Source: Paractinoplanes bogorensis
Lineage (GTDB): Bacteria > Actinomycetota > Actinomycetes > Mycobacteriales > Micromonosporaceae
Direction: 5' to 3'
Assembly (NCBI RefSeq): GCF_018829635.1
Contig: NZ_JAHKKG010000012.1
Coordinates: forward strand, 62,001 to 126,000
Length of the DNA stretch: 64,000 bases
Part shown: one piece after another, positions 30,968-34,475 of the stretch
How the letters are laid out: each line of letters opens with the position of its first letter
How positions within the stretch are numbered: the first letter of the stretch is position 1
Notes under the pieces: generated by a model
The model's database searches: none
What the model saw: the letters and a program-made list of their open reading frames with translations, nothing else
What the model was told of the DNA's origin: nothing
Translations under genes and position numbers: made by a program

Positions 30968-31330
30968 ATGGCCGACAGGAACCGACCCGGTGACGCCGGC
31001 GACCCTGCCGACGACGAGGTGTTCGACGAAGCCGTCGAGGACGACAACGACGCGACCGACGCCGATGAGCCGGTAGGCCGCGGCGGAACCGCCCTCGCCG
31101 AGCGGTCGGCCAAGCCGAAGAAGGAGGTCCGCCGGACCGGCTTCTTCGGTCGCATCGGTGGTTTCTTCCGTGAGGTCGTCAGCGAACTGCGTAAGGTCAT
31201 CTGGCCCACGCGCAAGGAACTGCTGACCTACACGACGATCGTGATCGTCTTCGTGGCGGTCATGACCACGATCGTCGGCCTGCTGGACCTGGGCCTGGGC
31301 AAGGCCATCCTCTGGGCGTTCGGCGGCTGA
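30968..31330 (+). CDS. secE: Preprotein translocase subunit SecE
   Basis: A 120-residue SecE with an acidic N-terminal extension of about 45 residues (rich in Asp and Glu), the amphipathic segment GFFREVVSELRKVIWPTRKEL, and one membrane helix (TTIVIVFVAVMTTIVGLLDLGLG). It stabilises SecY in the SecYEG channel. ATG 30968. A gap of 38 bp separates it from nusG. Confidence 0.95.
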   Translation: MADRNRPGDAGDPADDEVFDEAVEDDNDATDADEPVGRGGTALAERSAKPKKEVRRTGFFGRIGGFFREVVSELRKVIWPTRKELLTYTTIVIVFVAVMTTIVGLLDLGLGKAILWAFGG

Positions 31331-31368: not shown

Positions 31369-32130
31369 GTGCCTGAGTACGACGACGAGACCGCGAAGGT
31401 GACCGACGAGCAGTCGTCGGTGGCCACGGCGGACACCGACGAGTCGGTCGAGGCCGCTGATTCGCTGGAGGTCGAGGCCGAGGAGACCGTCGAGGAGCCG
31501 GCCCCGGTCGCCACGGTGAACCCCGAGGACGACCCCGACTACGACCCGGTACAGGAGCTTCGGCAGAAGCTGCGCTACGCGCCGGGCGACTGGTACGTCG
31601 TGCACTCCTACGCGGGTTACGAGAACAAGGTCAAGACCAACCTCGAGACCCGCATCACGAGCCTCGACATGGAGGATTTCATCTTCCAGGTCGAGGTCCC
31701 GACCCGCGAAGAGGTCGAGGTCAAGGGCGGCAAGCGCGTCCAGGTCAACAACAAGGTCTTCCCGGGCTACATCCTGGTCCGCATGGACCTGTCGCCCGAG
31801 TCCTACTCCTGCGTGCGCAACACGCCCGGTGTGACCGGCTTCGTGGGCGCGACCGACCGGGTCGACCGGCCGGCCCCGCTCTCGCTCGACGAGGTGCTGA
31901 AGTGGCTGGCACCGGCCGTCGAGCAGGAGGAGAAGAAGGCCAAGCCCGAGATCAAGGTGCTCGACTTCGAGGTCGGCGACTCGGTCACGGTGACCGACGG
32001 CGCGTTCGCCTCGCTGCCCGCCTCGATCAGCGAAATTAATGCCGACCAGCAGAAGTTGAAGGTTCTGGTCTCCATCTTCGGCCGTGAGACGCCGGTGGAG
32101 CTGAACTTCAACCAGGTCGCCAAGATCTGA
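31369..32130 (+). CDS. nusG: Transcription termination/antitermination factor NusG
   Basis: A 253-residue NusG. After an acidic N-terminal extension of about 65 residues comes the NGN domain ([19 protein letters not shown] to the FPGYILVRM strand), then the KOW domain ([16 protein letters not shown]...). It binds RNA polymerase and couples to the S10 protein. GTG 31369. Normally rplK follows; here the next gene is rplA, 68 bp downstream. Confidence 0.96.
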
Positions 32131-32198
32131 CAAGCACGTCAGTGGGAGGGCCCGGTAAACCAAGACGGGCCCGCCATCTACCACAGGAGTAAGTGAAC

Positions 32199-32909
32199 AT
32201 GCAGCGCAGCAAGGGCTACCGCAAGGGCGCCGAGACGATCGACGCCAACAAGCTCTACGAGCCCGCCGAGGCGGTCAAGCTGGCCAAGGAGGCCAGCCCG
32301 ACCAAGTTCGACGCCACCGTCGAGGTCGCCATGCGTCTGGGCGTCGACCCGCGTAAGGCCGACCAGATGGTTCGCGGCACGGTCAACCTGCCGCACGGCA
32401 CCGGCAAGACCGCCCGCGTCATCGTCTTCGCCCAGGGCGCCAAGGCCGAAGAGGCCGTCGCGGCCGGCGCCGACGAGGTCGGCACCGACGAGCTCGTCGC
32501 CCGCATCCAGGGTGGCTGGCTCGACTTCGACGCCGCCATCGCCACGCCCGACCAGATGGCCAAGATCGGTCGCATCGCCCGCATCCTCGGCCCGCGTGGT
32601 CTCATGCCCAACCCGAAGACCGGCACGGTGACCATGGACGTCACCAAGGCGGTCAACGAGATCAAGGGCGGCAAGATCACCTTCCGGGTCGACAAGCACT
32701 CGAACCTGCACCTGATCATCGGCAAGGCGTCGTTCAGCGAGCAGCAGCTCGTCGAGAACTACGGCGCCGTGCTCGACGAGGTGCTGCGGGCCAAGCCGTC
32801 CGCGGCCAAGGGCAAGTACCTCAGGAAGGTCACCGTCACCACCACCATGGGCCCCGGCGTGCCGGTCGACCCGAACGTGGTCAAGGGCCTGACCAGCACC
32901 GAGGCCTGA
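32199..32909 (+). CDS. rplA: 50S ribosomal protein L1
   Basis: A 236-residue L1, with [49 protein letters not shown] and the C-terminal [14 protein letters not shown] region. L1 binds 23S rRNA at the L1 stalk and can repress its own operon. ATG 32199 is preferred over GTG 32193 because AGGAG at 32185-32189 is 9 bases upstream. No L11 gene precedes it, though in nearly all bacteria rplK and rplA are adjacent and co-regulated. Confidence 0.96.
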
Positions 32910-32970: not shown

Positions 32971-33798
32971 GTGCGTTTCGACGGAGTGTGGTTCCGCTAC
33001 GGCCGCCGCGCCGACTGGACGCTGCGAGAGGTCGATGCCGCGGTCGAGCCCGGCCAGACGGTCGTGGTGCTGGGCCGCAACGGCGCCGGCAAGTCCACGC
33101 TCCTGCAGCTCGCCGCCGGCGTCCTGCGTCCGTCCCGCGGCGTCGTGCGCGACCGCCCGCCGATCGTGGGCTGGGTGCCCGAGCGATTCCCGGCCGACCA
33201 GCCGTTCACCGCGGGCGACTATCTGCACCGCATGGCCGAGCTACGAGGCCACGATCCGGGCGAGGCCGACCAGTGGATCGAGCGGTTGCTGCTCACCGCG
33301 CACACCGGCACCCGGCTCAGCGATCTCTCGAAGGGCACCGCGCAGAAGGTCGGTCTGGCCCAGGCCCTGATCGCCCGCCCCGGCCTGCTCATTCTCGATG
33401 AGCCGTGGGAGGGTCTCGACGCGGTCGCGCGCACCCTCGTCCCCGAGATCGTCGCCGAGGTGACCGCGGCCGGCGGCATGGTGCTGCTCAGCGACCATCG
33501 CGGCGAGACCGCCCATCTGCCCGGGGCCATCCACTGGCAGGTCGCCGAGGGCACTCTCGCGCCCGCCGAGCCGCCTCCGCCACCCGCGCACGACCAGGTC
33601 GTCATCGAGATCACCGTGCCGCGCGCCGCCGTGGACGAGACGGTGGTCCGGCTGAGAGCTCAGGGTCACGCTGTTTCTTCCGTACGCGACGTCTCCGCCC
33701 CCAACCGCACCGAGCCCGTCCCGGGCCCGACGGCATCTATCACCCCGGGCGGGGCGAACGCCCGCAAGGCCGCCGACGGCTCATGGGAGCGCGGATGA
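32971..33798 (+). CDS. ABC transporter ATP-binding protein
   Basis: A 275-residue ATPase: Walker A GRNGAGKST at about residues 35-43, the signature loop LSKGTAQKV, Walker B LLILDEPWEGLD, and the switch histidine in LLSDHRGE. The last 80 residues contain a Pro-rich linker and a small C-terminal domain. GTG 32971. It overlaps the permease start by 4 bases. The substrate is not evident; the pair resembles simple two-component exporters. Confidence 0.88.
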   Translation: MRFDGVWFRYGRRADWTLREVDAAVEPGQTVVVLGRNGAGKSTLLQLAAGVLRPSRGVVRDRPPIVGWVPERFPADQPFTAGDYLHRMAELRGHDPGEADQWIERLLLTAHTGTRLSDLSKGTAQKVGLAQALIARPGLLILDEPWEGLDAVARTLVPEIVAEVTAAGGMVLLSDHRGETAHLPGAIHWQVAEGTLAPAEPPPPPAHDQVVIEITVPRAAVDETVVRLRAQGHAVSSVRDVSAPNRTEPVPGPTASITPGGANARKAADGSWERG

Positions 33799-34475
33799 GT
33801 CCCCTGATCCGCATGCGCCTCGCCGGTTTCCTGCGCGGCGGCCGGATGCTGCCGCCTGCCATCGCCGTTCTGGTCGTCCTCGGCGTCATTTACGGCGGGG
33901 GAGCGTCCCCGGCGGCGGTGGCCTACGGCTACTCGGCGGCCGCCCTGTTCCCGGTGCTGGCCTGGCAGACCAAGCTCCTGCTGGACACCGAGCCCGACGT
34001 GCAGCGCCGCCTGGCGAGGGTCGCGGTCGGCGCCCGCACCGAGGCCACCGCCGGCCTGCTCGCCGCCGCCGTGCTCGCGCTGGTCGTCTGCGCCCTGGCC
34101 ATGGGCGCCCCCTGGCTGTTCAACGGCATCGACACCACCAAGGCGCTCGGTCCCGGCGTCGCGCTGGGCGTCCTGGCCCACCTGCTCGCCGTCCCGCCCG
34201 CCATCGCCGTGGGCGCTCTGGCCAGCCGCGCCGTGACCCGGGGCGTCCGCAACGGCGTCGCCGTGCTGGTCACCGCCGCCGTCCTGGTCGTGGTGCTGGG
34301 CCTGCAGGGCTCGGTCGCCCCGTGGCTGGTCCCGCCGGTCATGGCCACCGCGCGGGCTCTCAGCGGCCGGGAGCTGCCCGGCGCACCCGCACTGGCTCTG
34401 CTCACCGGCTGGGCCGCGCTCTGGTGCGCCGCCGCCCTGCTCGGATACGCCCAGCTCCGCCGCTCTCGTTCATAG
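33795..34475 (+). CDS. ABC transporter permease
   Basis: A 226-residue integral membrane protein with six hydrophobic helices in roughly two sets of three. It is the probable membrane partner of the ATPase encoded just upstream (ATGA overlap). ATG 33795 is preferred to the in-frame ATG 33783. There is no clear family signature. It lies between rplA and rplJ, where other actinobacteria have unrelated genes. Confidence 0.78.
   Translation: MSPLIRMRLAGFLRGGRMLPPAIAVLVVLGVIYGGGASPAAVAYGYSAAALFPVLAWQTKLLLDTEPDVQRRLARVAVGARTEATAGLLAAAVLALVVCALAMGAPWLFNGIDTTKALGPGVALGVLAHLLAVPPAIAVGALASRAVTRGVRNGVAVLVTAAVLVVVLGLQGSVAPWLVPPVMATARALSGRELPGAPALALLTGWAALWCAAALLGYAQLRRSRS

Follow-up and report, generated by a model that had tools for sequence, protein, structure and literature searches.

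The uL11 ribosomal protein of Actinoplanes in the broad sense (Actinoplanes, Paractinoplanes and Amorphoplanes, hereafter the genus) appears to have been exchanged. The native gene, rplK, is missing from its place between nusG and rplA, and each genome instead carries a single, conserved, divergent homologue at an unlinked site, which we call L11'. We read this as a xenologous replacement of native uL11 by L11', and give that reading as a whole a probability of about 0.82. The replacement of rplK by L11' is well supported, descent of L11' from an inducible accessory copy can fairly be inferred, and we hypothesize that a drug was the reason for the swap. The titles and abstracts that we searched contained no report of rplK loss in Actinoplanes.

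The window, a stretch of 64,000 nucleotides from Paractinoplanes bogorensis, lies on contig C3 of a 10.19-Mb draft assembly in 40 contigs. On its forward strand, an ORF from the ORF list (30968..31330), presumably secE-like given the usual gene order, is located 5' of nusG (31369..32130; PF02357 and TIGR00922 above cut-off). The next gene is rplA, encoding uL1 (32199..32909, forward strand; PF00687 and TIGR01169 above cut-off). As the initial annotation held, rplK is missing here, nusG ending at 32130 and rplA starting at 32199 with only 68 bp between them, and the window has no L11 match, since the sole PF00298 and PF03946 matches of the genome are on contig C37. The order was nusG-rplK-rplA in all 18 relatives that were fetched for their canonical L11. 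Beyond rplA, positions 32971-34475 hold an ORF that we take from its translation to be ABC-type ATPase-like and a second ORF, followed by an ORF that we read in the same way as rplJ-like. A published survey with its own operon criteria gives, in the passages available, rplK-nusG in 553 of >1800 genomes (PMC9514032).

The 68-bp spacer (32131..32198, forward strand) is the site of rplK loss and the equivalent of the ancestral rplK-rplA spacer. It does contain, as first described, two GGGCCC motifs (32148-32153 and 32167-32172) and an AGGAG (32185..32189, forward strand), the latter a Shine-Dalgarno-like sequence of rplA that is nearly invariant across the spacer alignment. The view that rplK had been cleanly excised stands insofar as the gene and its upstream region are gone. 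The GGGCCC pair, however, is not an excision scar, but part of an ancestral hairpin (32142..32184, forward strand), whose outer stem pairs 32142-32145 with 32181-32184 and whose inner stem pairs 32148-32154 with 32166-32172, and which also stands before rplA where relatives have kept rplK. Between rplK and rplA, a hairpin with GTGGGAGG and ACCACAGGAG is found in 12 of the 18 canonical relatives, and a GTGGNNGG variant in the remaining six. The covariation set consisted of 28 spacers: 18 from Actinoplanes (out of 29 distinct ones), that of genome G343 and nine from canonical relatives. In all of them the outer stem is invariant. In this set, 93.1% of the hairpin cells are paired and 30 cells show two-sided changes, neither value being reached by any of 500 shuffles; the count of four pairs that show such changes is not unusual, 155/500 shuffles having reached it. 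The junction therefore retains a conserved, irregular stem-loop with covariation just before rplA, near which Rfam gave no gathering-level match.

This stem-loop is likely to be a uL1 operator, a candidate assignment made from its sequence and position. According to the passages available of PMC10931766, the uL1 repressor site of Actinobacteria precedes the L1 cistron and forms an irregular, internally bulged stem-loop. The hairpin in the window is likewise irregular, its stem being interrupted by an internal loop, and immediately precedes rplA; it differs from that autogenous operator in that it stands directly behind nusG, rplK being gone. Since the hairpin is also present in the rplK-rplA spacer of relatives, the deletion would have removed rplK and its upstream region and spared the likely uL1 operator. 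With the operator kept behind nusG, uL1 feedback on rplA could continue.

As for the uL11 that remains, the Pfam search of the whole genome found one gene, outside the window, on the forward strand of contig C37 (177274-177699; PF00298 and PF03946), which encodes a protein of 141 aa. Of the two possibilities first raised, that L11 had moved or that it was lacking, part holds: the genome does have an L11 at another place, yet this is a divergent homologue, which has replaced the native one. L11' scores above the cut-offs of both Pfam L11 domains (PF00298, 93.6 bits; PF03946, 51.1 bits) and below that of the NCBIfam equivalog TIGR01632 (L11_bact), with 134.1 bits against 141.85, making it a divergent homologue rather than a standard equivalog. 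An AlphaFold2 model of the Actinoplanes solisilvae protein, which is 99% identical to that of the window genome, has a pLDDT of 82.6 and the uL11 fold, its best PDB match being a ribosomal uL11 (8fmw_AK) with a TM score of 0.93. L11' shares with canonical actinobacterial uL11 this fold, the two Pfam domains, P74 and P75 and the GTARSMG motif. In contrast, the two are only ~50% identical, fall into separate clades, have different loci and promoters, and L11' lacks P20, P22 and P23.

The loss is not peculiar to one strain, as had been considered, because L11' is fixed in the genus genomes searched: exactly one PF00298 match was found in each of 67/67 genomes. All 30 L11 loci that we fetched encode proteins 88-98% identical to the L11' of the window genome. 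In that genome, L11' has a transglycosylase gene on one side; on the other is a convergent gene of ClpP type, past which lies an isochorismatase-like gene. The ClpP-like neighbour is present at 30/30 of the fetched loci and a transglycosylase match at 26/30. The median dN/dS of L11' is 0.16 (199 sampled pairs), which indicates purifying selection. L11' probably does the job of uL11 in the ribosome.

L11' has lost the N-terminal prolines that characterize canonical L11. At columns that we take to be E. coli positions 20, 22, 23 and 26, the numbering used throughout, proline is found in none of 109 distinct L11' sequences; column 22 is a gap and column 26 a Lys in 109/109. Canonical L11 has P20, P22 and P23 in 65/65 sequences and P26 in 42/65, being without it in the other 23. 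A proline in a neighbouring column occurs in 29/109 L11' sequences, 27 of them in column 19, and is not seen in the Actinoplanes L11' displayed. These counts leave aside 6/180 unique sequences that fit neither pattern, one of which (L068) is evidently an L11'. According to the passages seen of PMC5960728, prolines of the uL11 N-terminal domain stack with thiazole rings, and thiopeptide resistance arises from mutation of these prolines or of A1067 or A1095 in 23S rRNA. A thiopeptide link thus fits the residues lost in L11', which may well be drug-insensitive.

On the rRNA side, A1067 and A1095 are kept in the 23S contact region of nine Actinoplanes genomes and of five other genomes in which L11' is the only L11 (G343, G452, G539, G616 and G631). 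A compensatory 23S change was sought in the GAC of the nine Actinoplanes genomes and none was seen; with the contact region unchanged there, no compensating rRNA change seems to be needed. The 23S pattern found no match in 5/30 genomes (that of the window, G000, and G028, G038, G495 and G458). As a separate observation, one 23S rRNA locus (L299) of another L11'-only genome, G595, shows A1067G and U1097A.

Many L11' copies fall outside the L11'-only set, and most of these accessory copies have MerR-type promoters. We scanned up to 90 nt upstream of start codons, the accessory class comprising 58 distinct upstream sequences, three of which are of a Nonomuraea type, with a canonical partner checked for part of the 58. 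The pattern TTGANN-N19-TANNNT, which has the 19-bp spacer of MerR-type promoters, is present in 48/58 accessory upstreams; spacers of 14-18 or 20-24 bp occur in 0/58, and the 19-bp pattern in 0/51 L11'-only and 0/65 canonical upstreams, counts that carry no P value, related sequences not being independent. A stricter MerR-type pattern is matched by 40/58 accessory upstreams, 33 of the 40 with a palindrome, against a background of 15 matches in 755,252 bases of 20-kb loci, L11' sites included. A 19-bp spacer, usually with a palindrome, thus marks accessory L11', and CTCCAGTNNCTGGAG is a candidate MerR-type operator. In 41/48 of these promoters, 6-8 nt separate the -10 box from the start codon, and the accessory L11' mRNA is probably leaderless.

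Spacers of 19-20 bp with palindromes are typical of MerR promoters, and TipA is listed as a thiopeptide sensor, in the passages available of PMC9909328. The accessory L11' promoters share with this class the 19-bp spacer and, usually, the palindrome, a likeness that rests on these two features and not on the TipAL operator sequence. They differ from MerR-type systems in that a regex scan of 70 loci, run with a positive control, revealed hardly any linked MerR gene: of its seven matches, only the two HspR-like ones in L081 and L083 look to be of MerR type. In Actinoplanes, L11' has a more ordinary-looking promoter, TTGACN-N18-TANNNT occurring in 42 of the 51 distinct upstream sequences of 200 nt and, in the four shown, lying 80-83 nt before the start codon. 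The accessory copy closest to the L11'-only subclade, that of G327, has no MerR-type promoter although its genome has a canonical rplK, showing that promoter loss and rplK loss are not exactly coincident. The Actinoplanes L11' leader is conserved and ~80 nt long (e.g., L001:1210-1290) and has AGCTGC...GCAGCT arms before the ribosome-binding site; it was considered as a structured leader, for which covariation support is weak.

No thiopeptide gene cluster was seen around L11'. In 43 genomes, no YcaO gene was found less than 100 kb from L11' along its contig, some contigs being short (17.8 kb in G458); the nearest YcaO is ~106 kb away (G657), and the window genome has none anywhere. Selected neighbouring genes from seven loci were also scanned with Pfam (L065, L081, L083 and one L082 neighbour standing outside the scan) and included no thiopeptide cluster genes, so that linkage to such a cluster was rejected. 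Few gene clusters are common to the 20-kb L11' neighbourhoods. We also observed a gene of ~110-150 aa directly 3' of accessory L11' in eight loci (L066:9528-9911, L069:9784-10101 and L082:9428-9883 on the reverse strand, L072:10304-10678 and L075:10520-10939 on the forward strand, and in L067, L071 and L077); among the five scanned, one matches a CGNR zinc finger and another gives a weak ABATE match below cut-off.

The closest parallel from the literature is TclQ/TclT, L11 paralogues of the thiocillin cluster of Bacillus cereus ATCC 14579 (PMC10704990). Compared by context and not by sequence, and as far as the passages available go, TclQ/TclT resemble accessory L11' in being extra divergent L11s beside a native rplK with a proposed role in thiopeptide protection. 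However, TclQ/TclT sit inside the gene cluster of the drug and the native rplK stays, whereas for L11' no cluster link was found, YcaO is absent from the window genome and native rplK is gone in several lineages. In the portion of the literature searched, we found no measurement of thiopeptide resistance in Actinoplanes. Work on A. teichomyceticus used a vector with a thiostrepton marker (PMC3897980, in passages that carry no selection details), which is odd for a resistant genus. A Psi-footprinting paper, in the part available, includes rplK among its indicator genes for resistance and gives Actinoplanes friuliensis a minus for this gene.

These findings bear on whether L11' spread for reasons unrelated to drugs, for example as a uL11 for the stringent response or for translation under stress, the missing prolines changing its contacts with factors or Rel. 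The lack of a linked biosynthetic cluster and the scarcity of shared neighbours would suit this account, as would the CGNR- and ABATE-like matches in two of the five small genes scanned and the fact that MerR-type promoters respond to oxidative stress and metals besides drugs (PMC9909328, passages available). Nevertheless, the residues lost are within the very proline set named for thiopeptide contact in the passages seen of PMC5960728, and G595 additionally has a contact change, A1067G. We consider a spread unrelated to drugs rather unlikely.

The family search covered 354 genomes, in which a single divergent copy was found only in the 67 genus genomes and in G343, from another genus (84% identity). 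A further 19 carry a pair of L11 genes of which one is divergent (54-72%). Two genomes, both <90% complete, have no L11 match, and the other 265 have canonical-level matches only (two in G172; weak and partial in two others). The order search (397 genomes) gave six Pseudonocardiaceae genomes (f15) with one match only, at a divergent level, and PF00298 confirmed one L11 each in these six and in G343. In each of these seven genomes, nusG and rplA are separated by 59-136 bp that include the hairpin and no L11; rplK is in place in the 13 two-copy genomes whose junctions were read beside them. Outside the order, the class search (394 genomes) gave best matches at a clearly divergent level in G878 and G840 alone, with two copies each; the next best, G911, is canonical. 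Of 29 named genomes, which partly overlap the others and whose completeness is not given, Actinoalloteichus spitiensis, two Allokutzneria and six of Actinoplanes type have one L11, and 20 have two matches, three of these being Nonomuraea with another divergent type. This second type (L174, L179 and L182), which lacks the PxPP motif, occurs alongside another L11 copy and also has a 19-bp-spacer promoter, L174 and L179 falling outside the main L11' clade.

A NusG+RplA tree (67 rows) unites Actinoplanes and G343 in one clade (100/97) and requires four changes for rplK loss, two of them forced by well-supported branches. An AU test rejects a single common loss (p 0.003) and does not reject a single loss within Pseudonocardiaceae (p 0.137), where the number of losses is uncertain. 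There are thus at least two independent losses of rplK. Six other sampled members of the genus of G495 have canonical-level matches only, their junctions being unread, which suggests that G495 represents a third event.

Phylogeny also speaks to a translocation, in which native rplK would have moved in the Actinoplanes ancestor and diverged fast, drift or adaptation removing its prolines. The single L11 per genome and the fold common to L11' and uL11 agree with this. However, a divergent L11 coexists with a canonical one in the 19 two-copy family genomes, and 20 of the 29 named genomes have two matches. Moreover, in a tree of 88 chosen rows, the L11' clade (100/98) is apart from the canonical clade (99/92), and Actinoplanes L11' groups with Pseudonocardiaceae L11', not with the canonical L11 of its own family. 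All L11'-only proteins form one subclade (99/78), to which the accessory copy of G327 is nearest. A translocation is accordingly very improbable. The grouping disagrees with the species tree, which suggests that L11' was transferred horizontally, although support is rough over 143 columns. Among the 80 named and 23 order loci checked, no L11' lies between nusG and rplA, the position of nearly all canonical L11 genes. A search for mobile carriage with one accessory L11' (G334) gave plasmid and phage matches all <60% identical.

An assembly gap or annotation error concealing a normal rplK, which the draft state of the window genome might have allowed, can be set aside, since all 30 junctions fetched from the 67 genus genomes with rplA lack L11 (gaps of 63-126 bp), several from one-contig assemblies (e.g., G001, G009 and G059), and none of the 67 genomes has a second L11.

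Under xenologous replacement, the Actinoplanes ancestor would have held L11' at another locus, native rplK and its upstream region would then have been deleted, and the rplK-rplA spacer with its presumed uL1 operator would have been left directly behind nusG. An inducible, probably thiopeptide-insensitive spare L11 would thereby have become the sole L11, now driven by a promoter of ordinary appearance at an unlinked locus, and thiopeptide-like inhibitors may have favoured the swap. More tentatively, and at somewhat worse than even odds, this could reflect on-demand ribosome remodelling, in which a spare non-PxPP uL11, kept by many actinomycetes under a MerR-type sensor promoter, would be induced by an inhibitor, perhaps a thiopeptide, to yield insensitive ribosomes. 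In the L11'-only lineages, namely Actinoplanes, a neighbouring genus and some Pseudonocardiaceae (Actinoalloteichus and Allokutzneria), the spare would have turned constitutive and rplK been discarded.

The proline helix of uL11 has roles in GTPase activation and Rel signalling. A whole antibiotic-producing genus uses a divergent version, without the proline motif, of a core ribosomal protein that is the target of thiopeptides, which makes Actinoplanes a natural test of the need for this helix in both processes. One practical consequence is that L11-based markers mix two non-orthologous genes. Finally, the accessory L11' copies with their sensor-type promoters suggest that inducible target-swap resistance may exist outside biosynthetic clusters.
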